Origin: a virus
IMG/VR virus record: IMGVR_UViG_3300034631_000056
Span: 1-41,138 of that record
Reading direction: 5' to 3' (one strand)
Length of the DNA stretch: 41,138 bases
Shown: positions 4,114 through 41,138 of the stretch, one piece after another
Position numbering within the stretch: position 1 is the first letter of the stretch
Layout: each line of letters begins with the position of its first letter
Position numbers and translations under genes: made by a program
Notes under the pieces: model-generated
What the model was told of the DNA's origin: nothing
The model's database searches: none
What the model saw: the letters and a program-made list of their open reading frames with translations, nothing else

Positions 4114-4706
4114 GGCCGCTCTACCTGTTCAGATGAAGGAGAAGATGCGGAGAGGGATGCGACCACAAAAGCGGGGTCGCGGAACCGGTACAGATCCTTG
4201 CTGGGCGGATACGCGCCCGGCGGGTTGATCTCGGGTCGCGCAAGGCTGGCACGGATCTCGTCGAATGGCAGCTTCCAGCCCTTGCCGGGGCCGCGCTCCA
4301 TCAGGACGAGGATCTGAAAGTAGCTGTCGGCCTTCATCAGCCGATGATGAACGGCGAGTGGCTTGCCGTTCGCCGCCCAATGCTCCGCTTGGTGCATCAG
4401 GATGCCGATTTCCTTGCGGATATAGGCGGCAAGCAGCGCAGCACATTCCCGCTCCACCATCCCCGATGCTTCTACGGTAGTAGGCTTGGGAGAGGCGGCG
4501 AGCGGAATGGTCGGTTCCGGCGTGTTTATCGCCCGAGCCACTTCCTCCATGGCGCTCTCGACCTGCGTCCTATTCGCCGCATAAAGGCGGCCGGTTCCCT
4601 CGTCAGCGCGGTCGATGGCAGAGCGAGCGTGCGAATACAGTACGTCGGCTGCCGCTTCGATCCGCATCGCGCGGTCGATCCACGCTTGCGGCACCAGGCG
4701 CATCAC
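4110..4706 (-). CDS. Hypothetical phage protein, 198 aa
   Basis: Not recognised. It contains a helical N-terminal region rich in Ala, Asp and Glu, a short linker with Pro and Thr, and a central segment (MVERECAALLAAYIRKEIGILM) followed by LMKADSYFQIL. The C-terminal tail is serine-rich. No signal peptide. Start codons at 4706 and 4703 are both possible; the first overlaps the stop of the 68-aa gene upstream as ATGA. Member of the leftward integrase operon. Confidence 0.7.
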   Translation of the reverse strand: MMRLVPQAWIDRAMRIEAAADVLYSHARSAIDRADEGTGRLYAANRTQVESAMEEVARAINTPEPTIPLAASPKPTTVEASGMVERECAALLAAYIRKEIGILMHQAEHWAANGKPLAVHHRLMKADSYFQILVLMERGPGKGWKLPFDEIRASLARPEINPPGAYPPSKDLYRFRDPAFVVASLSASSPSSEQVERP

Positions 4707-7431: not shown

Positions 7432-7673
7432 TCGAGCCGGTCTGGACGGGCCTCGATTTCGCGTCCGGGCCGGAGATGAGCGCTGTCGTGGTCATCGATC
7501 ACGACAGCGACGCTGGCGCGTGGGCGCGGGCCATCGAGATCACGCCGCACCTCGCGGCACAAGTTCATGAGATCGCGCGCGGGATTTCCCCCCTGTTGCC
7601 CGCGCGCGTAGGCGAGGCGGCGGGATCCTACCCGCCCGCCGTCTCGCCATTCCAGCCTTGGTGGGCCGCGTGA
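7428..7673 (+). CDS. Small hypothetical early protein, 81 aa
   Basis: The ATG at 7428 overlaps the upstream stop as ATGA. The open frame begins at 7338, but that part lies inside the previous gene. The product starts MIEPVWTGLDFASGPEMSAV and continues with VVIDHDSD, an alternating beta pattern that superficially resembles an RNase H-like first strand (GLDFASGPE), then a helix and a proline-rich tail ending PFQPWW. Too short for a nuclease domain; function unknown. Confidence 0.6.
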   Translation: MIEPVWTGLDFASGPEMSAVVVIDHDSDAGAWARAIEITPHLAAQVHEIARGISPLLPARVGEAAGSYPPAVSPFQPWWAA

Positions 7674-8607: not shown

Positions 8608-8852
8608 GAGAGCGCGACGTCGAGACGATCGTGGCCGAGCGCGCGGGCGTGCTGGCATTCGCGCGGGCGACGTGCACGCAGATCGATGCGCTGAGCGCGC
8701 GCGGCCGGCTGGGTGAGGCCGACGCGGACGCGGTCAAAAATGCAGTCCGCGCCTTCGCGCAGGGCATCGCCACGGGGCTGCACCGCGACGGGCATGATCC
8801 GGCGATGGTGCGCACGCTGATGCGGTCGATCGTGGGGGCGAGCAATGGCTGA
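8604..8852 (+). CDS. Small helical hypothetical protein, 82 aa
   Basis: The ATG overlaps the upstream TGA (ATGA) and the end overlaps the DUF5131 gene by 8 bases. The sequence is almost entirely alpha-helical and charged (RERDVETIVAERAGVLAFAR, then LGEADADAVKNAVRAFAQGI). No motif, membrane segment or signal peptide. Function unknown; coding status rests on operon packing. Confidence 0.65.
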   Translation: MRERDVETIVAERAGVLAFARATCTQIDALSARGRLGEADADAVKNAVRAFAQGIATGLHRDGHDPAMVRTLMRSIVGASNG

Positions 8853-9837
8853 AAACAGCGCCATCGAGTGGACTGATCACACCTTCAATCCATGGATCGG
8901 CTGCACAAGGGTCGGCCCTGGCTGTGACCACTGTTACGCAGCGGATCTGTCGGAGGCGCGGCTTGGCGTGCGCTGGGGGCTTGGGCAACCGCGCCGCCAC
9001 ACCGCCGCCTCCACGTGGAACCAGCCGCGAACGTGGGATCGTCGGGCCGCAAAGCTCCGCATCCGCTACCGCGTCTTCTGCGCCAGCCTCGCGGACGTAT
9101 TCGACAACGAGGTGCCGGCGGAGTGGCGTGCCGAGCTGTTCACGCTGATCCGCGAGACGCCAAACCTTGACTGGCTGCTGGTGACAAAGCGGATCGGAAA
9201 CGCAGACAAGATGGCACAGGCGGCGGGCGGGTGGCCGCAGAATGTCTGGCTCGGAGCGACGATCGTCAATCAGGCGGAAGCAGGTCGCGACATCCCCAAG
9301 CTGCTGGCGGTCGAGGGGCCGCGGTTTCGGTTTCTTTCGATGGAGCCGTTGCTCGGGCCTGTCGACCTTGAGCAGGCATGGCACGGCGAAAGCGCCTTGA
9401 GCAGCGAGTGTTGGGGCGACTGCGCGTGGTGCGAGAAGGGGTACACCCCACTTTGGAATTGCCAGCGCGATTGGAGCGGCGCGCGATACGAGGCGGGTGC
9501 GAAGCAGCGTTCCGGCCTCGACTGGATCATCGTCGGTGGAGAAAGTGGGCCGAACGCGCGGCCTATGCACCCGGATTGGGCGCGGTCGCTGCGCGATCAA
9601 TGCGCCGACGCTGACGTGCCGTTCCTATTCAAGCGGTGGGGCGAATGGGCGCCTTTGCTGTCGGCCGCGACCGTAGACTGGCCTGCTACCAACGTCGCTT
9701 GGCCTGACGGACACGTTGGTGCCGGCTCTCCTCGTGCGAATGGTGGCAAGGGCGAGCAGCTGTACCGGGCGGCGAAGAAGGTCGCTGGACGAACGCTGGA
9801 CGGCGCGCTGCACGACGGGCGGCCTGATCGTGCCTGA
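8845..9837 (+). CDS. Phage Gp37/Gp68 family protein (DUF5131), cysteine-rich
   Basis: 330 aa. Hallmarks of the family: NSAIEWTDHTFNPWIGCTRV at the start, KRIGNADKM, WLGATI, LSMEPLLGP, GGESGPNARPMHPDW and VPFLFKRWGEW near the end. Cys20, Cys27 and Cys30 form a C-x6-C-x2-C cluster followed by Tyr, resembling the iron-sulphur loops of radical-SAM-like enzymes. The reaction is unknown to me, and the radical-SAM link is inference. A second Cys cluster (Cys189, Cys193, Cys196, Cys206) could bind zinc and appears to be an insertion before the GGESG segment. Part of the early operon, overlapping genes on both sides. Confidence 0.9.
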   Translation: MAENSAIEWTDHTFNPWIGCTRVGPGCDHCYAADLSEARLGVRWGLGQPRRHTAASTWNQPRTWDRRAAKLRIRYRVFCASLADVFDNEVPAEWRAELFTLIRETPNLDWLLVTKRIGNADKMAQAAGGWPQNVWLGATIVNQAEAGRDIPKLLAVEGPRFRFLSMEPLLGPVDLEQAWHGESALSSECWGDCAWCEKGYTPLWNCQRDWSGARYEAGAKQRSGLDWIIVGGESGPNARPMHPDWARSLRDQCADADVPFLFKRWGEWAPLLSAATVDWPATNVAWPDGHVGAGSPRANGGKGEQLYRAAKKVAGRTLDGALHDGRPDRA

Positions 9838-10372
9838 CGCTGCCGACATCGCCGCCGAAATAGAGGCCGAGACCGTGGCGCGCGGATTGTCGCGCACGCG
9901 GGTGCAGATCTCCGCCGGTGTCGCGGGCGAGTGCAGCGACTGCGGCCACATGATGCTCCGTCTCGTGGGCGGCATGTGCGCCTTCTGCCGCGACGGCCGC
10001 CTGCCTCCCGACGATTGGGAGCCGCCCGTTTTCAACCTGCCGAGCCCACGAGAGGAACCTGCCGTCATGCCCAAGTCTATCCAGCTGCCTTCCTCTGCGA
10101 TCGAGGCAATCAAAGCGGTCGAAGGGCGCGCACGCGGTCTCGGCACGTCCCAGGGCGAAGCGGCGGCCGACCTGATCGTCGCAGGATCGCAGACGATCGA
10201 TGCCGACAACAGCGTCCGCACGCCGCTTAGCGACTTCGACGTGGAAGAGCTGCTGGCCGAAGTTCGGCTGCGGCTTCTCAGCGCCGCCAGCCCGTCCGTC
10301 GTCGAAGCGCTGACGACACGAGCGGAGACGGCCGAACGGAAGCTCGCACAGGTCCAGGCGGCGTTCGCCTGA
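9830..10372 (+). CDS. Zinc-ribbon early protein, 180 aa
   Basis: GTG start at 9830, overlapping the end of the DUF5131 gene; the frame is open from 9716 but that part is inside the neighbour. Cys35, Cys38, Cys50 and Cys53 (CSDCGHMM then GGMCAFC) form a C4 zinc ribbon. A proline-rich linker follows, then an Ala/Glu-rich helical domain. An internal ATG at residue 80 or so starts MPKSIQLPSSAIEAIK. It could be a DNA- or RNA-binding protein of the replication set; no specific family. Confidence 0.65.
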   Translation: MPDAADIAAEIEAETVARGLSRTRVQISAGVAGECSDCGHMMLRLVGGMCAFCRDGRLPPDDWEPPVFNLPSPREEPAVMPKSIQLPSSAIEAIKAVEGRARGLGTSQGEAAADLIVAGSQTIDADNSVRTPLSDFDVEELLAEVRLRLLSAASPSVVEALTTRAETAERKLAQVQAAFA

Positions 10373-10422: not shown

Positions 10423-13400
10423 ATGAGGGTGCCAACGACAACGCTGCCGTCCGCCATGGGTCAGGCGGCGCTCCAATACGCGCGCCGGGGCTGGCCGGTC
10501 TTCCCGGTCCGCGAGCGTGACGAGACCGTCCGCATCGGCGGGGCAGGGGGCGAGGAGCGCACGTTCAAGGCCAAGGCGCCCTACACGGGCAAGGGGCTGA
10601 AGGACGCCACCACGCACGAGCCGACGATTGAGGCGTGGTGGCGACAGCACCCGAACGCGCTGATCGGCCTGCCCACCGGCGTCAACGGGTGCTTCGTCCT
10701 CGATTTCGATCCGCGTGTCGAAGAGGACTGCGATCCGGAAACCGGCGAGGTCATCGGCACGCGCGAGTGGACGCTGGAGCAGCTGAAGGCCGACCTGGAA
10801 GAGCAGATGGGCGTGCCGCTGCCGCGCTCGCTGACCGCGATCACGCAGTCGGGCGGCGTCCACGTCTACTTCCGCCAGCCGGCCGACGTCGCTGCCGGCG
10901 CCGAGCCGATCCGGAACCGCGGCAACCTTCCGGCGCACGTCGACGTGCGTGGGCAAGGCGGTTACGTCATCGGTCCGCCTAGCGTGCTGCCGGACAGCGG
11001 GAAGAGCTATCGCTGGATGCGCGACCGCGGCGACTGGCGCGATGATGCCGACATCGCAGAAGCCCCGGCCGAGCTGGTGACGATTCTCCGGTCGAGGAAA
11101 GCCAAGCCCGCGCCCAATCCGCCCGCGACGTCGCCCGAGCGGCGCACGTCGTCGGTGGCCTCGGCCGCGCAGGTCGACGACGCCGTGCGCAAATATGCGC
11201 TGTCGGCGCTCGACGGCGAGTGCCGAGCGATCCGCACGGCCGGTTCCGGCCGGCGCAACGCCCAGCTGAACGAGAGCGCCTTCAAAGTGGCAACGCTGGT
11301 CGCGGCCGGCGCGCTCGACGCCGGCGTCGCGCGTGCGAGCGTCGAGGCGGCCGCGCGCGACAACCCCGGCCGAGATGACGACGGGCAGCTAATGCTCACG
11401 GTCGCCAGCGGCTGGACCGCAGGAAGCGAACAGCCTCGCGATCTCGGAGAGATCGCGGCCACTGCTCGATCCCGCGCCGATCGGCGCCCGGCCGCGCCCG
11501 GCCGCCCCGCACCGCGGGCTGAGCGCCGAAATGACGCATCCTTCCGGGTTGGAAGGGTGGATGGCGTTCAAGTGCTGGACGAGGCGGGGTGGGCGCGCGC
11601 GCGGAAGGTGGCGCAAGCGTGGCTCGTCCGGCGCGCTGAGAACGTCGACCCGACCAAGGAAGCGATCACGCGGTTGGCCTATGGCGTCGGGCGGCGGATC
11701 GCGGCCGAGCTGCTGGACGAACACGACGCCAAGCAGGCGCTGTGGGACGTCTACGAAGGCGTCGCCGACGTCCAGCACGCCGACGTCAACCGCGCGATCG
11801 AGGATGGCATCAACCGCGGCTTCGACCTGGCGCCGATCGCGCTGACGATGAAGTGCCTCGGCTATCCCCTGACCGACTTCGGCATCGCCGAGCGCTTCCG
11901 CGACCGATACGGCGAGGACTTCCGCTTCACCACCGGCAAGGGCTGGCTCGGCTGGGACGGCCGGCGCTGGAAGGTGCTGGATCAGGATGAGAAGACCCCG
12001 CCGGCGGAGGTGATTGCTGCCGTCTTCGAAACCGTGCGTGCCATCCAGGATGAAGCCCGCTTCATCGCCGACACGAAGGTGAAGTGGAGCCTCGTGCGCG
12101 ACGGCAAGGATCAGCGGCTCGATCTCGACGACGACGACAATCCGCACGGCCTCGACCGCTGGATCGCGAAGGGGAAAGGCTGGGAGTTGCTCTCGACCAA
12201 GGTGTCCGTGTTCGGCCGCCAGTCCGAGACGACGGGGAAGCCGGCCGCGGTTGCGCTGCTCGCGCGTCGCTGGCTAACGGTCCCGATCGAGCGCTTCGAT
12301 CACGACAAATACGCCTTCAACGTCGCCAACGGCACGCTGCGCTTCCGCACAGAGGAGGGACCGGACGGTGCGCGCGAGGGCGCCGTCACGCTGTCGCCGC
12401 ACGATCGCGCCGACATGCTGACGAAGCTGTCGCCGGTGACCTACGATCCCGGCGTCGCCTCGCCGCGCTACGACGCCATGTTCGGCTGGGCGCAGCCCGA
12501 CGCCTCGATGCGCCGCTACCTGCACCAGCTCGGCGGCTACGCCCTCACCGGCGACGCGGGCGAGCAGAAGCTCTGGTTCTGGTACGGTCGCGGCCGCAAC
12601 GGCAAGGGCACCACGCTCGACGTGTGGCAGCACGTCGTCGGCGACTATGCGGACAGCATCCCGATCGGGTCGTTCCTCGACCAGGGCATCAAGAAACGCG
12701 GCGACCAGGCGTCGCCCGATCTCGCGAAGCTCGCTGGCGTGCGCATGCTGCGATCGTCAGAGCCGGGGCGGAACGAGAAGCTCGACACCGGCCTGGTCAA
12801 GCTGGTCACGGGCGGCGACCCGCTGCCGGTCCGCATGCTGCACCGCGGGTTCTTCAACCTTCAGCCGCTCTTCAAGCTCATCATCATGGGCAACACGAAG
12901 TTCGACATTCCCGATACCGACGACGGCATCTGGAGCCGAATGAAGCTGATCCCCTGGCTCAGGAACATCGAGAAGCCGGAGCCGGGCGTGGCCAACTGGC
13001 CGGAGAAGGACCCGAACTTGCCGGCGAAGATCATCGCCGAGGAGGCGTCGGGCGTGCTGAACCGGCTCGTCGCCGGCCTGCTGGATTACCTCAGCAACGG
13101 CCTCGTGGAGCCGAAGAGCGTGACCGAGGCCACCATGGCCTATCGGGACGCCAGCGACCCTCTGGCGCGCTTCCTGCGGCTATGCGTCGTCGCGGACGCC
13201 GACACTCGCGTCCAATCGTCGAAGCTGCACGAGGTCTTCGTCGCCTGGTGCAAGGCGGCCGGCGAGCGGGAGTGGTCGAACAAGGGCTTTTCCAACGCGA
13301 TGGCGGAGAAGGGCTATCAGAAGAAGGCCAGCGACGGGATGCAGTGGCTGGGCATCCGCCTCGTGAAGGAGGTGCACGACTTCGTCGATCACGACGGCAA

Positions 13401-13503
13401 GCCGCGGTCGCTGAGCGACGAACCCGTCCTCTCCGATGATCGCACGATGGTCGACGACAACGGCTGGCCGCCGCCCGACGACTTCGGCGACGTGCCGCCG
13501 TGA
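10423..13503 (+). CDS. Prim-Pol primase/polymerase fused to D5-type SF3 helicase
   Basis: 1026 aa. The N-terminal Prim-Pol domain (about 15-215) carries the metal-binding VLDFDP (Asp94, Asp96), SGGVHVYF (143-150, His147) and DVRGQGGYVIGPPS (Asp174, Arg176). After a linker, residues about 480-1000 are a D5_N/SF3 helicase with Walker A-like GRGRNGKGTT (722-731, Lys728) and the FKLIIMGNTKFDIPDTDDGI segment carrying the sensor Asn. The protein can in principle prime and unwind the phage origin by itself. Alternative starts at 10429 (GTG) and 10456 (ATG) exist. It sits directly before a cluster of iteron-like repeats, as expected for an initiator-helicase next to its origin. Confidence 0.95.
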   Translation: MRVPTTTLPSAMGQAALQYARRGWPVFPVRERDETVRIGGAGGEERTFKAKAPYTGKGLKDATTHEPTIEAWWRQHPNALIGLPTGVNGCFVLDFDPRVEEDCDPETGEVIGTREWTLEQLKADLEEQMGVPLPRSLTAITQSGGVHVYFRQPADVAAGAEPIRNRGNLPAHVDVRGQGGYVIGPPSVLPDSGKSYRWMRDRGDWRDDADIAEAPAELVTILRSRKAKPAPNPPATSPERRTSSVASAAQVDDAVRKYALSALDGECRAIRTAGSGRRNAQLNESAFKVATLVAAGALDAGVARASVEAAARDNPGRDDDGQLMLTVASGWTAGSEQPRDLGEIAATARSRADRRPAAPGRPAPRAERRNDASFRVGRVDGVQVLDEAGWARARKVAQAWLVRRAENVDPTKEAITRLAYGVGRRIAAELLDEHDAKQALWDVYEGVADVQHADVNRAIEDGINRGFDLAPIALTMKCLGYPLTDFGIAERFRDRYGEDFRFTTGKGWLGWDGRRWKVLDQDEKTPPAEVIAAVFETVRAIQDEARFIADTKVKWSLVRDGKDQRLDLDDDDNPHGLDRWIAKGKGWELLSTKVSVFGRQSETTGKPAAVALLARRWLTVPIERFDHDKYAFNVANGTLRFRTEEGPDGAREGAVTLSPHDRADMLTKLSPVTYDPGVASPRYDAMFGWAQPDASMRRYLHQLGGYALTGDAGEQKLWFWYGRGRNGKGTTLDVWQHVVGDYADSIPIGSFLDQGIKKRGDQASPDLAKLAGVRMLRSSEPGRNEKLDTGLVKLVTGGDPLPVRMLHRGFFNLQPLFKLIIMGNTKFDIPDTDDGIWSRMKLIPWLRNIEKPEPGVANWPEKDPNLPAKIIAEEASGVLNRLVAGLLDYLSNGLVEPKSVTEATMAYRDASDPLARFLRLCVVADADTRVQSSKLHEVFVAWCKAAGEREWSNKGFSNAMAEKGYQKKASDGMQWLGIRLVKEVHDFVDHDGKPRSLSDEPVLSDDRTMVDDNGWPPPDDFGDVPP

Positions 13504-13522
13504 GGGCTGGCGCGACACATAT

Positions 13523-13781
13523 CCTTCCGGTCCGGAAGGGTGGCGGAAGGGTTCTCGGAAGGGAAAAGCGGCTGATTTCTGCGGCTTCGGAAGGTTCGGA
13601 AGGTTAGCCGCGATGTTGTTCGTATATCATGCGCACATGCGCAGGCGCACGACGAAAACATACGTCAATCCTTCCGATCCTTCCGAACCTTCCATCAGGT
13701 AAGAAAAAGGGCGTTCTTCTAATGAGTTATGGTGAGTTGGATTGCGGAAGGGTTGGTGGCGACGCTTCCGGCGCCGGAAGG
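13523..13781. repeat. Iteron-like CGGAAGG repeat cluster, candidate replication origin
   Basis: The heptamer CGGAAGG occurs in direct orientation at 13533, 13544, 13556, 13588, 13597, 13745 and 13775 (start positions), and as CCTTCCG at 13523, 13670 and 13679, with a CCTTCCA at 13688. Pairs and triplets have a 9-bp period (TTCGGAAGG twice; ATCCTTCCG-type three times), so left and right arrays face each other across a less GC-rich stretch (13604-13669). Two strict palindromes also contain it: 13523-13539 and 13765-13780. The cluster lies straight after the Prim-Pol/helicase gene. Confidence 0.6.
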
Positions 13782-14249
13782 ATGACGTTCACCGACGTCG
13801 AGGACCGGCTTGTCGAGGCGATGCTGACCTGTTGGCGCCACGCGGACCGCGAACGCGGCTGGCAGCGGCTGCGCTCGGCGTGGCCGGAGATCAGCCGTGA
13901 CGTGTTGGCCGGCGACTATGATGCGCGCGGCGGGCTGGACGCTGGCGACCAGCCCACGCTGAAGCCCGCGTCGCTCACCCGGCGCGAGGTGGCGGAGATG
14001 GAGGAGGCGTTCGGCTGGCTCGATGCCGTTGACCCGGCGGACCGCAAGTTGATCGGCCTCGCCGTGGCGCAGCTGGCGGCAGGCAAGCGGGAGATCAGCT
14101 GGATGCGCATGATGCCGCGCCTCGGCCTTGGGCGCGGCGCTGACGGCCTGCGCATGCGCTACGGCCGGGCCATCGCCGCCATCTGCGACCGCGAAAACCG
14201 CAGAAATGCAGGGGACATGCGTGTCAACGGGGTAAATCTGCCGGACTGA
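13722..14249 (+). CDS. DUF6362-like phage protein, 175 aa
   Basis: The segment MTFTDVEDRLVEAMLTCWRH, then GWQRLRSAWPEI, is typical of the DUF6362 family found beside phage primases. The family start could be the ATG at 13782 (155 aa), but that codon directly follows GGAAGG with no spacer; the ATG at 13722 has AAGGG upstream and is used here. The middle (LTRREVAEMEEAFGWLDAVD) and the end (RMRYGRAIAAICDRENRR) suggest a helical DNA-binding protein with sigma-like helices. Its 5' end overlaps the repeat cluster. Confidence 0.7.
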   Translation: MSYGELDCGRVGGDASGAGRMTFTDVEDRLVEAMLTCWRHADRERGWQRLRSAWPEISRDVLAGDYDARGGLDAGDQPTLKPASLTRREVAEMEEAFGWLDAVDPADRKLIGLAVAQLAAGKREISWMRMMPRLGLGRGADGLRMRYGRAIAAICDRENRRNAGDMRVNGVNLPD

Positions 14250-14346
14250 TCATTTTCTTTGTTCGTCTGTCGGGCATTTTCGGCCTATTTCACGTCACGC
14301 TGGGACGGGCCTTCGGGTACGGCACGGCATCCTCTCCTGAACCTCG

Positions 14347-14380
14347 CGAAGGGCGCCCGGCTTCGGCTCGGCGCCCTTCG
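14347..14380 (+). terminator. GC-rich stem-loop before the HNH gene
   Basis: CGAAGGGCGCC (14347-14357) pairs with GGCGCCCTTCG (14370-14380) around a 12-base loop, followed by TGCTTTCG. It lies between the DUF6362 gene (end 14249) and the HNH start (14397), so it could end or attenuate the early transcript. The T-run is short, so termination efficiency is uncertain. Confidence 0.5.
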
Positions 14381-14396
14381 TGCTTTCGAGTATGAT

Positions 14397-14747
14397 ATGG
14401 GCAGGCTGAAAGGACTGGCGCCGCGCCTCGGCTCGTTGCGCCCGCGTCTCGCGCCAGCGCCGCACGATCGGCAGCAGTACGATCGCCAACGCGACGAGCA
14501 GCCTTGGCGGCAGTGGTACAAGACGGCGCGATGGCAGCGGCTCCGCTGGGCGGTGCTGCAGCGCGACCTGTTCACGTGCCAGCGATGCCAGCGGCTCGAA
14601 GGCGAGACCGCAAAGCTGGTGGCGGATCATCGGCGCGCCCACCGCGGAGACGAGGCGCTGTTCTGGGATGAGGGCAACCTCTGGACCCTCTGCAAGCCAT
14701 GCCACGATGGTTGGAAGCAGCGGCAGGAGGCGCGCACGAGATACTAG
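14397..14747 (+). CDS. HNH endonuclease, packaging-associated
   Basis: 116 aa from the ATG at 14397 with GAG six bases upstream; the frame is open from 14259, but that would run through the stem-loop. Motifs: two zinc-binding pairs Cys61/Cys64 (CQRC) and Cys99/Cys102 (CKPC), the HNH core ADHRRAHRG (His78), NLWTLCKPCHD (Asn94, His103). HNH proteins placed just before terminase genes assist cos cleavage in HK97-like phages such as HK97 gp74; the same job is likely here. A YKTARWQRLRWAVLQRD segment precedes the zinc site as in that family. Confidence 0.92.
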   Translation: MGRLKGLAPRLGSLRPRLAPAPHDRQQYDRQRDEQPWRQWYKTARWQRLRWAVLQRDLFTCQRCQRLEGETAKLVADHRRAHRGDEALFWDEGNLWTLCKPCHDGWKQRQEARTRY

Positions 14748-14861
14748 GGGGAGCGACAAGCGGCACGGCTCGCAAGGCCTCCGTCCATGCCGATCGCGGC
14801 GTGGTGGCTCCCCGCCATGGGCCGGCTGCATGGCGCATTGCGTCGCCGCGACCCCATGGCA

Positions 14862-14888
14862 GCCCGGCCGCGTCGACCGCGGCCGGGC
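14862..14888. repeat. Inverted repeat in the HNH-terminase gap
   Basis: GCCCGGCCGCG (14862-14872) and CGCGGCCGGGC (14878-14888) are perfect 11-bp arms around TCGAC. The 227-base gap (14748-14974) holds no gene I can support. It also contains a G-run (14900-14910 region) and a second G-rich stretch (14930-14937). A location between HNH and terminase is where cos sites commonly lie. Confidence 0.5.
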
Positions 14889-14974
14889 ACCCATCGGGAG
14901 GAGGGGGGGGGCGAAAGTCCAGAAGGGGCGGGCCGCTAGACCGCCGTCCCTCCCATTCGGAGATTTTTTTCGCG

Positions 14975-15436
14975 ATGCCGGAAGATTTGGGACGCGACCT
15001 GTTCGGCGACCCGATCGTCCTGGCCAAGGAAGGCCGTGGACGACCGGAACACGCCTGGTCTCTCGAAAGCTCCAACCGGGTGCTGATCGCCTTCGCGCGC
15101 GGCATGACGGTCAAGGAAGCGGCTACCGCGATCGGAGTCTCGGTCCCGACCCTACGGAAGCATTATTTTTCCGAGGTCGCGAAGCGCGACAGCGCGCGCG
15201 TCCGGATGGAGATCACGCAGCTCGCCCGGCTGAACGACGCCGCGGCTGACGGCAACGTCGCGGCCGAGAAGGAGCTGCTGAAGCAGATGGAGAGGGGCGC
15301 CATGATCAGCGGCGCCCGCGCCATGGAGAAGCCGGCCAAGGTGAAGCAGCCGAAGCTGGGAAAGAAGGAGCAGCTGGTCGCTGACGCCGGCACGGCATCG
15401 AAGAGCGGTGAATGGGGTTCGTTGCTGAAGCACTAG
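14975..15436 (+). CDS. terS: Terminase small subunit-like DNA-binding protein, 153 aa
   Basis: Residues about 35-68 (SNRVLIAFARGMTVKEAATA then IGVSVPTLRKHYFSEV) make a helix-turn-helix of the kind that recognises the packaging site. The C-terminal part is helical and lysine-rich, suitable for oligomerisation and large-subunit contact. The start follows GGAG and a T-run. Its 3' end overlaps the large-subunit gene by 25 bases in another frame. Identification rests on the HTH, size and position before TerL. Confidence 0.75.
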   Translation: MPEDLGRDLFGDPIVLAKEGRGRPEHAWSLESSNRVLIAFARGMTVKEAATAIGVSVPTLRKHYFSEVAKRDSARVRMEITQLARLNDAAADGNVAAEKELLKQMERGAMISGARAMEKPAKVKQPKLGKKEQLVADAGTASKSGEWGSLLKH

Positions 15437-17157
15437 CCCGCCGCTTCGCCGAACCGGACTGGCCGCTGTTTGCCTGCCCGGATTGGGCGGAGCGCCTGGC
15501 GCAGCGACGGTCGCTGATCCCGGATGAGTTGCGCGAGCTGCTCGATCAGAAGGAAGCGGCGCGCGCCGTCGCCATCTTCAACAAGCTGCGCCTGCCCGAC
15601 GTGCCGGGTCAGCCCACGATGGCCGAGGCGGCGGGCGAGTGGCAGCGCGATATCGTTCGCGTGCTGTTCGGCACGATCGATCCTGCGACCCGCGTGCGGA
15701 TCTTGCGCGAGATCTTCGCGCTGGTGCCTAAGAAGAACGCCAAGACGACGGGCGGCGCGGCCATCATGGTGACTGCCCTACTGATGAACGAGCGGCCCCG
15801 CGCCGAGTTCGTGCTGGTCGGCCCGACGCAGGAAGTTGCCGACACCGCGTTCCAGCAGGCTTCGGGCATGGTGGAGGCCGACGAGTTCCTGCGCACGCGG
15901 TTCCACGTCGCGGAGCATACGAAGACGATCACAGACCGCCTCACGAAGGCGCGGTTGAAGATCAAGACCTTCGACATGCGGGTGGCGACCGGATCGAAGC
16001 CGGCCGGCATCCTGCTAGACGAGCTGCACCTGATGGCCAGCATGGCGGATGCCGGCCGCGTGATCGGACAGCTGCGGGGCGGCATGATCGCCAACCCGGA
16101 AGCGTTCATGGTGATCATCACCACGCAGTCGGACCGGCCGCCTGCCGGCGCCTTCAAGGCCGAGCTGGATTACGCCCGCGGCATTCGCGATGGGCGGATC
16201 GTCGCTGACGTGGCGACGCTTCCGCTGCTCTACGAGCTGCCCGAAAAGATGCAGCGGGACGGCTCGTGGCGCGATCCGGCGCACTGGCACATGGTGCTGC
16301 CGAACGCGGGCCTGTCGATCACGATTGAGCGCCTGGCCGCCGAGTATCGAGCCGCTCGCGACAAGGGCGACGAGGAGGAGCGGCGCTGGGCGTCGCAGCA
16401 TCTGAACGTGCAGATCGGCCTCGCCCTGCACACTGACCGCTGGATCGGCGCGGACTATTGGGAGCGGCAGAGCGACGCCGGGCTGACGCTGGCAACCCTC
16501 CTCGTGCGGGCTGAGGTGATCGTCGCCGGGATCGATGGCGGCGGCCTGGACGATCTGCTGGGCCTTACGCTGGTGGGGCGCTGTCGGGATACGAAGCGCT
16601 GGCTCGCCTGGTCGAAGGCCTGGGCGCAGCCGATCGTGTGGGAGCGCCGAAAGGAGATCGCGGCCGAACTGGACGGCTTCGTTGAGGACGGCGACCTCGT
16701 GCGGTGCGAGCATCCGACGCAGGACTTGCAGGAAGTCGCCGCGCTGCTCGTGACGGTGCAGGCCGCCGGGCTGATGCCGGAAACGAACGCCATCGGCCTC
16801 GATCCGCAAGGCATCGGCGCGCTGATCGACGAGTGCGTGCAGCAGGGCCTGCCCGAAGAGTTAATGACGTCGGTTTCGCAGGGCTTCAGGCTGAGCGGAG
16901 CGGTGTGGACCGCGGAGCGCAAGCTGGCGGACGGCACCTTCGTCCATGCCAACCAGGCGCTGATGGTCTTCTGCGTCGGCAATGCCCGCGTGGAGCAGCG
17001 TGGCAACGCCGTGCTGATCACGAAGCAGACCGCTGGAAAGGCGAAGATCGACCCGCTGATCGCGCTGTTCAACGCGGTCTTTCTGATGAGCCGCAATCCC
17101 GAAGCGACAGGAGGTGGAATGGACGCGTTCTTGAACCGCCTGGCGGCGGCTGCATGA
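15412..17157 (+). CDS. terL: Terminase large subunit (packaging ATPase/nuclease)
   Basis: 581 aa, the usual length of HK97-like TerL (Terminase_1). The ATPase has a Walker A variant VPKKNAKTT (105-113) and Walker B ILLDELHL (200-207). The nuclease domain begins near AGIDGGGLDDLLGL with Asp375 as a likely metal ligand. It would cut concatemers and pump DNA into the prohead. The start overlaps terS. The deviant Walker A (PKKNAKT in place of GxxxxGKT) is normal in this family. Confidence 0.95.
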   Translation: MGFVAEALARRFAEPDWPLFACPDWAERLAQRRSLIPDELRELLDQKEAARAVAIFNKLRLPDVPGQPTMAEAAGEWQRDIVRVLFGTIDPATRVRILREIFALVPKKNAKTTGGAAIMVTALLMNERPRAEFVLVGPTQEVADTAFQQASGMVEADEFLRTRFHVAEHTKTITDRLTKARLKIKTFDMRVATGSKPAGILLDELHLMASMADAGRVIGQLRGGMIANPEAFMVIITTQSDRPPAGAFKAELDYARGIRDGRIVADVATLPLLYELPEKMQRDGSWRDPAHWHMVLPNAGLSITIERLAAEYRAARDKGDEEERRWASQHLNVQIGLALHTDRWIGADYWERQSDAGLTLATLLVRAEVIVAGIDGGGLDDLLGLTLVGRCRDTKRWLAWSKAWAQPIVWERRKEIAAELDGFVEDGDLVRCEHPTQDLQEVAALLVTVQAAGLMPETNAIGLDPQGIGALIDECVQQGLPEELMTSVSQGFRLSGAVWTAERKLADGTFVHANQALMVFCVGNARVEQRGNAVLITKQTAGKAKIDPLIALFNAVFLMSRNPEATGGGMDAFLNRLAAAA

Positions 17158-30112: not shown

Positions 30113-33100
30113 ATGTCCAAGGTGGCGAAGACCGCGGCGATGGTTGTCGGCGCGGTGGCCCTGGTCGCGACCGGCGTGGGCGCGGCGATCGGCGCCGGCA
30201 CGATCATCGCGGCAGGTGTCTCGGTCGGTACCGTCGCGACCGTCGCCAACGTGGTGGCAGGGGCGCTGACGATCGCGTCGGCGGTGACCGCGCCCAAGCC
30301 CTCGTCCACCGTGTCCGGCTCGCAGACCAGCTTCTCGGCCAACCCCGATGACGCGCTGCCGCTCGCGATTGGCCGCACGGGGACCGCCGGCAAGATCACC
30401 TACCGCATCGGCTTCGACACGCGCGACGCGGGCGACAATGATCGGCAGGCGTTCGTCGTCACGCTGTCCGTGGGACCGATCGCGGCAATCGAGGGGCAGA
30501 CCGTCGACCAGGCGCCGGTGACCTACTCGGGCACCGGGGCGGCGGTCGGTTCCAACGCGGGATGGATGTGGAGCCGCGCCCAGCTCGGCGCGCTGCCGGA
30601 GGCGTCCGCGCTCGGCTTCGGCACCGGCGCCGGCACGCCGCCCGGCTGGACCAGTCAGCACAAGCTGTCGGGCAAGGCGGCGGTGACCTGGACGCTGCGC
30701 TTCGACACGAAGGGCAAGATGTTCCAGGGCGGCGTGCCGGCGCCCATGTGGGTCGTGCGAGGCATCGCCTGCTACGATCCGGCGAAGGACAGCACCTATC
30801 CCGGCGGCAGCGGACCGCACCGCATGGCCGATCCCGCCGACCGCGCCGCCTACGACGCTGCAATGGACACCTGGGAGTATAGCGAGGATCCGTACCTGCT
30901 CGCGATGCGGTGGGCGCACGGCATCTACCAGCGTGACCGGAGCAACCCGGCGTCGACCTACGAGCGCGTCATGGGGATCGGCGCGCCGTGGGCGATGATC
31001 GACGTCGCCGCCTTCGTGGAAGGCCGCAATCTCGCCCAGGCGAACGGCTGGAAGGCTGGGGGCATCATCTATTCCACGGACGGCAAGTGGGACACGATGA
31101 AGCGCATCCTCCAGGCGGGGATGGGCGAGCCGCTGGCCCTCGGCGCGCGGATCAGCTGCCTGGTCAACACACCGAAGGTCAGCCTCGCCACGATCACCGC
31201 CGATGACGTGGTCGGCGCGGCCAGCGTGGGCGGAACACAGCCGCGGCGCGACCGGATCAACACCATCACGCCGCGCTATCGGCTGGAGGCGAACAACTGG
31301 CAGTTCCTGCCCGGCCCGCCGATCAGCGTGGCGAAGCACGTCACCGAGGATCGCGGCAAGCGGTCGCGGCTTCAGGACTATCCGTTCATCCAATCGACGC
31401 CGCAGGTGGCGACCGCAGTCCGCTACGACATCGAGAACGCGCGCGAGTTCGGGCCAATCGTCCTGCCGCTGAAGCTCGTGTGGATGGGCTTCAAGCCCGG
31501 CGACTGCGTCACGGCGACGCTGCCGGAGCTGGGGCTGAACGCGCAACCCATCCTGCTGCTCAATCGAGACCTTGCCCCGGCAGGCGGCATCGTCACCATG
31601 ACGGCGCGCTCGGAGACGGCTGAAAAGCATCCGTTCGCGTTGGGGCAGACCACCATGCCGCCCGCGACGCCGGGCGTGACTGCACCGCCCCTCGTCCCCG
31701 TGCCGCGTGACGGGGACTGGGCGCTGACCGCGCTGCCGGCAACGGCGCAGCTCGTCACGCCCACGTTGGCGATCACCGGCGCCGCGGCGGCTAACGTCGA
31801 CGGCATCGTCTTTGAGTATCGGGTCTTCGACAGCGGGCAGCTGTGGACGGCAGCGGGCAGTGACGCGGCGACTGCGACCTACCGAGAGATCACCGGACTA
31901 CGTGCAGGGACCGCTTACGAGGTAGCGGTCAGCTACACGAAGCAGGGGATCTCCGGAGACAGGCGTGTCATCGGGCCGGTCACCACGGCGATCGTGTCGG
32001 TGGCAGGTGAGCAGGGCGTGCCCGGTCCTCCGGGTGCCAACGGTCAGACGAGCTACGTGCATTTCGCCTATGCCAACGCGGCGGATGGCTCGGTCGATTT
32101 CACCACAGGCGACGCCGGCGGGCGCTTCTATGTCGGCGTCTACGTCGACTTCAGCCCGGCCGACAGCGATGATCCCGCGGCGTACACCTGGTCGCTTCAG
32201 CGCGGCGCCAACGGCGCGAACGGCATCCCGGGGCCACCCGGGGCCAACGGCCTGCCGAGCTACGTCCACATTGCGTATGCGAACAGCGCGAATGGGCAGG
32301 CAGACTTCCACGTCTCCGACCCGACCGGACGGACGTACATCGGTGTCTATTCCGACCAGACGCTGGCCGACAGCAATGATCCCGCGGCGTACACCTGGTC
32401 GCTGATCAAGGGCGCCGATGGCGTGCCGGGCGCGCAAGGCCCGCAAGGATTGCCCGGCACGAACGGAACGCCGGGCGCGCCGGGCGCTCCTGGGGCCAGC
32501 GGCGCCACAAGCTACGTCCATTTCGCCTACGCCGACAGCGCGGACGGATCGGTCAACTTCACCACGGGTGCGGCAGAGGGGCGCTACTACGTCGGCGTCT
32601 ACGTCGACTTCGTCGAAGCCGACAGCGGCAATCCGGCCTCGTACACCTGGTCCCTGCTGCGGGGCGCGAACGGCGCCAACGGCATCCAGGGTCCGCCGGG
32701 AGCGAACGGGCAGACGACCTACGTGCACGTCGCATATGCGAGCAGCGCGGACGGATCGGTCAACTTCAGCGTCGATGATCCGACCGGCCGGACCTACATC
32801 GGGGTCCGCACCGACTATGTGCTGGCCGACAGCCCCTTCTACGGTGACTACACCTGGTCGCTGATCAAGGGCGCGGACGGTGCGCCGGGCAGCCCCGGCA
32901 GCCCTGGCAGCCCCGGCGCGCCTGGTGATCCGGGTGCACCGGGCGCACCCGGCACCCCTGGCGCGCCGGGTGCACCCGGTCCGCAGGGTCCTTCGGGCGT
33001 CACGGCGCCGAAGCCGGTGCAGATCGGCACGGGCACCAGCAACGGCGAGCAGGTTCTCCTCGCTGTCGGGCAGGCCGTCTCGCTCAGCGCTCGCGTCCGA

Positions 33101-39651: not shown

Positions 39652-41138
39652 TGGCACAGGGCTTCACCACGCAAGGCAACCGCAAGGTCATCACTGTCAC
39701 TACGCTCGCGCAGCTACGAGCGGCTTACATCGTGGCGACCGGAGGCACGGTTATCCGCCAAACGGCGGTTGACCCCGATGTGACGACGATCAACCGCACG
39801 CTCACCTTCGCGCTCCAGAAGGGCCGGGCGGGTGTTTCGATCGAGTTCCATCCGCAGCAGACGATGCGGATCATCCTGAAGCCCGGCCGCCACAACCTCG
39901 AACTGATTTACGGGCGCGCGTCGGCGGACGACGTCATCGGCAACGCGGCCACGGCGACCTACGCGGTCGAGGCGGAGTCCGGGGCGTCGCATTTCGCCAT
40001 CCGGGGGATGGTGCTGGGCCAGAGCAACAAGCACTTCGTCGCCGACAACTGCACCGACTTCGAAATCACGGACTGCCTGCTCGAATGGACGCGAGTGGAC
40101 AGTTGTCAGATCGTCCGGTGCCGCCGGTTCACGCTGGCCCGCAACTACGGGCGAGACACGACCATCAAGAGCCGCAAGCTGCGCTGGTTCAACGACGGGC
40201 GTCAGCCGGTCGATGATGCCAACTCCGATAACGCGACCGACGCCGGGCCGATCGGCTGGGCCGACGCCGATCACAGCGACCTGTTCCAAATCCGCAACTA
40301 CGATCAGAGCAACATCGTCACGGAGGACGTGGCGGTCCTCGACAACGATGTGTGGATGCAGGGGGCAGGCATCGTCTCCTTCGGCAATTACAGTAGCGAC
40401 GGCTTCAAGGTGCGCCGGATGCTGGTGGCGGGTAACAAAATCCGCTGCACCGATAACCGGGCCGTGTTCATGGACGGCGAGGACATCGAGGTCCGCGACA
40501 ACGAGGTGGGCACGCATCCCATCGCGGGTCGAGCGGGATCAGGCACGCTCGGCATCACCGTCATCCGCCGGCCCGACGTGGCAGCGTCGCGTGTCCGCGG
40601 CGGTCGCAACACGCTCGCCAACACCGGGTATCCCGACACGCCCGGCGTGGAGCCTGATGGACCGCTGGGGTTCACCGACGCGAGCAATGCCGCGGGTATG
40701 CTTGGCGGCCCCACGATCACCGGCGATGCGGTGGTGGCGCCGGCCATCCCGCGACTGGAACTCGGACGCCTCGGCTGGGCAACCAAGAACATCACGCGCC
40801 CGGCTTTCACCGCTTACACTGGTGTCCCGGTCATCGCGGCGGAGCCTCGCATCTACCACACCAACCAAGGCGCGATGAAGTTGCAGACGCGCCCGGCGGC
40901 GGTGGTTGGCGGCTGGGCCACTGGCAATCTCGGCAAGACCAAGGGTAACGGCAGCGAGACCTACGATGTCGAGTGGCGCCGCGGCGGCCCCACCGGGCAA
41001 CTGCTCTCCACCTCGCGCATCTACCAGTTCCAGCAGGCCGACGTTGGCGTCGGCGTGGTGTACGGTGTCCGTCCGACGAACGGCAACGGGCCTGGCGTGT
41101 TCGCGTGGAGCGCGCTGGAGACGGTGGTGTCCGCGTAG
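39651..41138 (+). CDS. Beta-helix tailspike, 495 aa
   Basis: The ATG overlaps the stop of the previous gene (TAATG). A short N-terminal part is followed by a right-handed beta-helix pattern (FAIRGMVLGQSNKHFVADNC, TDFEITDCLLEWTRVDSCQI, VTEDVAVLDNDVWMQGAGIV, RMLVAGNKIRCTDNRAVFMD) typical of pectate-lyase-like tailspikes that cleave or bind polysaccharides. The C-terminus (400-495) is a beta domain, perhaps the trimer cap. It ends exactly at the window edge, so the right end of the element is not seen. Confidence 0.8.
   Translation: MAQGFTTQGNRKVITVTTLAQLRAAYIVATGGTVIRQTAVDPDVTTINRTLTFALQKGRAGVSIEFHPQQTMRIILKPGRHNLELIYGRASADDVIGNAATATYAVEAESGASHFAIRGMVLGQSNKHFVADNCTDFEITDCLLEWTRVDSCQIVRCRRFTLARNYGRDTTIKSRKLRWFNDGRQPVDDANSDNATDAGPIGWADADHSDLFQIRNYDQSNIVTEDVAVLDNDVWMQGAGIVSFGNYSSDGFKVRRMLVAGNKIRCTDNRAVFMDGEDIEVRDNEVGTHPIAGRAGSGTLGITVIRRPDVAASRVRGGRNTLANTGYPDTPGVEPDGPLGFTDASNAAGMLGGPTITGDAVVAPAIPRLELGRLGWATKNITRPAFTAYTGVPVIAAEPRIYHTNQGAMKLQTRPAAVVGGWATGNLGKTKGNGSETYDVEWRRGGPTGQLLSTSRIYQFQQADVGVGVVYGVRPTNGNGPGVFAWSALETVVSA

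Follow-up and report, generated by a model that had tools for sequence, protein, structure and literature searches.

A viral DNA of 41,138 bases (hereafter the window, meaning the whole stretch analyzed) carries a dense cluster of CGGAAGG heptamers between a gene for a primase-helicase and the genes for DNA packaging, which raises the question of what function these repeats serve and which protein reads them. The original prediction saw in them a likely iteron-type replication origin, with the primase-helicase and the neighboring DUF6362 protein as the proteins to test for binding. The features of the locus are as follows:

10423-13503, plus strand: primase-helicase, the presumed initiator, with Prim-Pol, D5_N and Pox_D5 domains (PF09250, PF08706, PF03288; PHROG 1156, DNA primase)
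11540-11556: inverted pair CCTTCC-GGGTT-GGAAGG in the linker of the primase gene between its Prim-Pol and D5 parts
13159-13362, plus strand: C-terminal winged-helix domain (about residues 913-980), presumed to bind the origin (AlphaFold2, Foldseek)
13523-13562: outer-left cluster, CCTTCCG at 13523 and CGGAAGG at 13533, 13544 and 13556, mostly kept in relatives
13563-13587, plus strand: conserved spacer GAAAAGCGGCTGATTTCTGCGGCTT, a block near-identical among relatives
13588-13603, plus strand: inner-left array, two CGGAAGG copies at 9-bp spacing
13604-13669: 66-bp core (50% GC), at whose center lies the alternating, GC-rich tract GCGCACATGCGCAGGCGCAC
13670-13694, minus strand: inner-right array, three CCTTCC copies at 9-bp spacing
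13722-14249, plus strand: neighboring DUF6362 gene (PHROG 6836), likely start ATG at 13722
13745-13781: outer-right cluster, GGAAGG, CTTCC and GGAAGG, within the 5' end of the DUF6362 gene
14259-17157, plus strand: HNH endonuclease, TerS-like and TerL packaging genes (context)

Half of the exact CGGAAGG/CCTTCCG copies in the whole window (10 of 20) fall within 13501-13790, namely those starting at 13523 (minus strand), 13533, 13544, 13556, 13588 and 13597 (plus), 13670 and 13679 (minus), and 13745 and 13775 (plus). With the one-mismatch copies CCTTCCA at 13688 and GCTTCCG at 13764-13770 counted in addition, these bear out the ten heptamers initially claimed. At the density of the remaining window, 290 bp would be expected to contain 0.07 copies (Poisson P ~8e-19), and 2000 dinucleotide shuffles of the repeat region yielded at most two copies each. 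The 9-bp period ascribed to the repeats is kept strictly by the inner groups (13588/13597 and 13670/13679/13688), whereas those of the outer-left cluster are spaced by 10-12 bp. Both palindromes that had been called perfect are present, but only CTTCCGGCGCCGGAAG at 13765-13780 is without qualification, the other, CCTTCCGG-T-CCGGAAGG at 13523-13539, having an unpaired center base. The less GC-rich stretch of 66 bp was recovered exactly as the core at 13604-13669: its GC content is 50% against ~65-69% around it, and in 34 of 35 loci the core falls below the average for its locus, though that of the window is not AT-rich in absolute terms, being only moderately less GC-rich and holding a GC-rich tract. 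The first repeat lies 20 bp past the primase stop codon, an adjacency that is the same in relatives; the placement right after the Prim-Pol/D5 gene stands, except that the third cluster (13745-13781) lies inside the DUF6362 frame. The region presents two facing repeat sets around a core, the arrangement expected of an iteron origin. The 5' end of the DUF6362 gene (13722-13781) itself appears iteron-shaped, encoding GR...S...GR residues, and the homologues in loci L084 and L085 are without that stretch.

Protein searches of IMG/VR and GTDB recovered 27 close relatives, some of which represent the same phage in both collections. They are Sphingomonas prophages and viral contigs, and all the named host genomes are of Sphingomonas. 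Sphingomonas corticis 36D10-4-7 carries a prophage that is 96% identical. Absence of the repeats from relatives with a homologous primase-helicase had been named at the outset as the observation that would speak against an origin; all 27 carry them. Moreover, all 27 share the layout of the gap: the outer cluster is followed by a pair of copies at 9-bp spacing, then by the less GC-rich 66-bp core and by two or three copies in the facing orientation, again spaced by 9 bp, and in every one of them the third cluster extends into the next gene. The spacer block and the GC-rich alternating tract of the core are likewise kept in 27 of 27.

The primase-helicase is a protein of 1026 aa, and its C-terminal winged-helix part is modeled by AlphaFold2 with a pLDDT of 94-98. 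Foldseek matched this part to the RFX DNA-binding domain and the ASFV PrimPol, with a weaker match to the origin-binding domain of phage P4 (1ka8), all of these structure matches being weak by E-value; a profile of the primase C-terminus gave a weak alignment to 7ola, a DNA primase. On its predicted domains, therefore, the protein couples an SF3/D5 helicase to a C-terminal winged helix, as expected of an initiator. Downstream of it, the genes follow in the order DUF6362, HNH, TerS-like protein, TerL, portal and capsid. Just 5' of the primase gene lie those for a DUF5131 protein and a DksA-like zinc-finger protein (8845-9837 and 9716-10372 of the window). Rfam gave only a sub-threshold match, ending at 13513 just 5' of the repeats, and a search of a plasmid collection with the DNA returned no match. 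GC skew was uninformative: its sign is unchanged at 13.6 kb, and nearly all genes are on one strand.

To decide between the two candidate binders, we turn to covariation between repeats and proteins. Across 14 phages, similarity of the repeat motif correlates with similarity of the D5 protein (Spearman rho 0.64-0.71), and on the same 14 phages the values are 0.13 for TerL, 0.04 for TerS and 0.13 for DUF6362; in larger subsets the correlation of the motif with TerL and TerS rises up to ~0.37. The D5 signal persists in partial tests (0.57-0.71, P=0.0002), including a partial Mantel test of the D5 C-terminus given TerL (0.63, P=0.0002). The value for DUF6362 given D5 is 0.07 and not significant. 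As the D5 C-terminus given the AAA part also yields a non-significant 0.07, covariation leaves the C-terminal domain and the remainder of D5 indistinguishable as the source of specificity. DUF6362 is, furthermore, missing from 25 of the array loci checked. Because the repeats covary with D5 and these 25 arrays occur without DUF6362, the primase-helicase is likely to be the repeat binder on the comparison of sequences, repeat specificity matching the initiator by covariation only. Of the two proteins originally put forward, the primase-helicase is hence retained, and DUF6362, which the motif does not track once D5 is accounted for, is rejected as the binder.

Facing arrays of 9-bp period also occupy the gap in more distant phages with D5 helicases, but the repeat sequence is different. 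The repeat is GGGACG in RcapNL, GGGCCTGA in Pthi1, GGGGAAGAT/GGGAGGATA in Pan4, GGGAGGCTA in AmM-1, GGAAGG in Mae-JY04, and GGACAGCTA in RR1-A (L040), where the array lies two genes further downstream; loci on viral contigs supply many further repeat types with the facing geometry. By an automatic rule that misplaces a few, the inner copies face each other at a distance of 58-106 bp in 35 of the 47 loci measured. A strict test for facing arrays was positive in 13.8% of the windows lying <=1 kb past the D5 stop versus 0.34% elsewhere in the same loci, and 33 of 77 loci passed it. Many far D5 relatives showed no array and several others showed one only by eye; near the primases of the actinobacterial phages Dismas and Kurnik, no array was seen within the short gaps inspected. 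In L059, L108, L111 and L040, other genes or stretches separate D5 from the array, and direct adjacency of the two is thus not strictly required. Certain phages whose records name Microcystis, Nostoc or Pseudanabaena as host (PP395637, PP395642, PP395635, ON968455) carry primases or terminases that most resemble those of the Sphingomonas-type prophage, and their true hosts may be associated alphaproteobacteria.

Since searching by D5 would be circular, we also scanned by DNA pattern alone, independently of D5, for facing GGAAGG arrays of the form GGAAGGNNNGGAAGG-N50-80-CCTTCCNNNCCTTCC. The scan matched 54 contigs, in 49 of which a D5 helicase gene ends 72-197 bp upstream of the array; in 4 others the stored stretch does not include the D5 side of the array. 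The remaining one, L133, is a true exception, with facing GGAAGG arrays at 7549-7648 and no D5 match in its 41 kb viral record. The next gene after the L133 array codes for a RadC-like protein and is followed by one for DUF3560.

The related inverted pair that had been noted inside the primase gene is indeed present at 11540-11556, and it recurs at the matching place in most relatives: of 14 family members, 10 have two intact half-sites and the remaining 4 an intact and a degenerate one, and in the relatives L003-L028 the pair lies ~1.9-2.0 kb upstream of the D5 stop. The protein sequence of the linker around it is otherwise poorly conserved, and the site is encoded by the rare codons GGA-AGG, a codon pair whose expected share of Gly-Arg is 0.0017 from codon usage. 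The retention of half-sites in a variable linker by means of rare codons therefore suggests selection acting on the DNA. The pair looks like a further site for the initiator; most simply, it might be a second site of control.

Taken together, the repeats, their fixed geometry, the linkage of the arrays to D5, the covariation of repeat and D5, the modeled winged helix, and the shared layout and location of the annotated A2 rep_origin and the P4 crr support the original interpretation. Hence, we posit, with a probability of roughly 0.88 and on comparative sequence evidence, that 13523-13781 is a replication origin with iterons, akin to those of P4, SaPI and A2, to which the primase-helicase encoded next to it binds. 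Under this proposal, the winged helix at the C-terminus of the Prim-Pol/D5 protein would bind the CGGAAGG iterons, and the facing inner arrays, with a period of 9 bp that is nearly one helical turn, would place a pair of hexamers on the 66-bp core in head-to-head orientation. Melting of the core and outward movement would then fall to the SF3 helicase (D5) domains, and the Prim-Pol domain would prime synthesis for extension in both directions by the host polymerase. The outer clusters and the pair at 11540-11556 would be further initiator sites, probably tuning occupancy or copy number.

The location of the arrays ahead of the HNH-TerS-TerL genes could alternatively point to a cos packaging site, in which the repeats would be sites for the terminase small subunit around a cohesive-end cut. 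RcapNL, which has the same gene order, even has a 26-nt 3' cohesive overhang annotated within the corresponding gap; its record (JQ066768) carries identical 26 bases at 1-26 and 40464-40489 under that label. This annotation is, however, at odds with a survey of R. capsulatus phages that lists RcapNL as circularly permuted (PMC8601537). The element also does not travel with the terminase genes: no facing array comparable to these lies upstream of HNH in TerL relatives without D5 (Nsp-JY10, Rivra, LagS-V1, two Bradyrhizobium phages and PseuP_224), and on the 14 phages above the motif follows neither TerS nor TerL. Further, the arrays of A2 and P4 are annotated as replication elements, and a likelier cos is the G-run GGGGGGGGTCGAAAGTC conserved between HNH and TerS in several relatives. 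Such G-runs occur 1249 (L003), 1344 (L004), 1302 (L009), 1309 (L018), 1273 (L028) and 2107 bp (L066) past the D5 stop, and also in Nsp-JY10 (L037); no exact GGGGGGGGTCGAAAGTC was seen in the window. The contig of L066 stops 42 bp from where its G-run begins, and several contigs end in or near HNH. We accordingly reject a cos site as the main function of the arrays and consider this explanation very improbable.

Iterons often serve as operators too, and the array precedes the late operon; it might, therefore, be an operator array for transcriptional control of that operon, bound by DUF6362 or the primase. A promoter and terminator scan of the region, nevertheless, found neither a sigma-70-like promoter nor a terminator, a structure search with the DUF6362 model gave no meaningful match, and the lack of DUF6362 from 25 array loci and of any tracking of the motif by it given D5 weighs against this proposal as well. 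We regard it as improbable as the primary role, while autoregulation on top of origin function may occur. A different kind of origin is conceivable from the precedent of pRN1, in which the Prim-Pol initiator depends on a stem-loop that lies downstream of its gene, as has also been proposed for the Bordetella phage BIP-1 (PMC4234260). The facing arrays would then be the arms of a long stem-loop rather than binding sites, and as single-stranded DNA the region does fold better than shuffled sequences (z -3.85). Yet, the pRN1 type is a large stem-loop without iterons, and here iterons are present: the unit also occurs in tandem, in the outer clusters and inside the primase gene, none of which a hairpin needs, and the motif covaries with D5. 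Moreover, the corresponding gap of the phage BPP-1 has an iteron layout with two 9-bp units facing two. A purely structural origin is hence highly unlikely, and we favor the iteron origin bound by the primase-helicase.

An origin of this type is already known, and the more interesting part is the shared geometry combined with the turnover of the repeats across phages. We tentatively suggest that D5-type phages, from those of Alphaproteobacteria to those of Firmicutes, might keep one fixed geometry, with facing arrays of 9-bp period ~60-105 bp apart, even as the repeat turns over quickly with the initiator to give many mutually exclusive initiator-origin codes; the Sphingomonas family might in addition have a conserved initiator site within the gene of the initiator itself, acting as a control or looping site like the second element of P4. 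For the many phages that encode a D5 helicase, the comparison yields a simple rule by which to locate the origin. It also supplies natural pairs of initiator and iteron that differ widely in sequence, and these make a joint change of specificity in winged-helix initiator and origin testable.

Among known systems, the Lactobacillus phage A2 (AJ251789) has an annotated rep_origin (32208-32717) directly after its D5-type primase gene. As in the window, facing copies, here of ACGGGAGGAT, surround a core ~65 bp wide and outer copies are present; the repeat sequence differs, however, the core is strongly AT-rich, and neighboring copies are spaced by 8 and 12 bp rather than 9. Comparably, the crr of phage P4, required in cis for replication, adjoins the alpha gene, and its type-1 repeats at 4314/4323 (9 bp) face those at 4366/4384. 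The alpha protein combines primase, helicase and a C-terminal winged helix, the last of which is predicted in the window's initiator. Unlike in the window, the P4 crr contains a 120-bp unit in two copies, and the ori of P4 is a separate element distant from crr. The primase domain of P4 is of the TOPRIM type, unlike the Prim-Pol of the window (PMC4234260). The SaPI Rep/ori is likened to the window from its published description. Its ori, according to Ubeda et al. in 2007, reportedly comprises two iteron sets flanking a core. The SaPI iteron origin lies directly downstream of the helicase gene and is recognized by the C-terminal domain (PMC7581432). Finally, pRN1, BIP-1 and BPP-1 share with the window the Prim-Pol, SF3 helicase and winged helix, as well as an origin 3' of the gene, though the putative origin of pRN1 and BIP-1 is in the literature a stem-loop without iterons (PMC4234260). 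In BPP-1, a close relative of BIP-1, we found two exact TTGCCTCGT units 9 bp apart (26607 and 26616) facing two ACGAGGCAA units (26693 and 26702) across 68 bp (AY029185, 26607-26710), downstream of the Prim-Pol gene, ~480-570 bp past the primase and beyond bbp28. This offers a new reading for phages in which a stem-loop origin had been proposed for the Prim-Pol initiator on the basis of the BIP-1 sequence.
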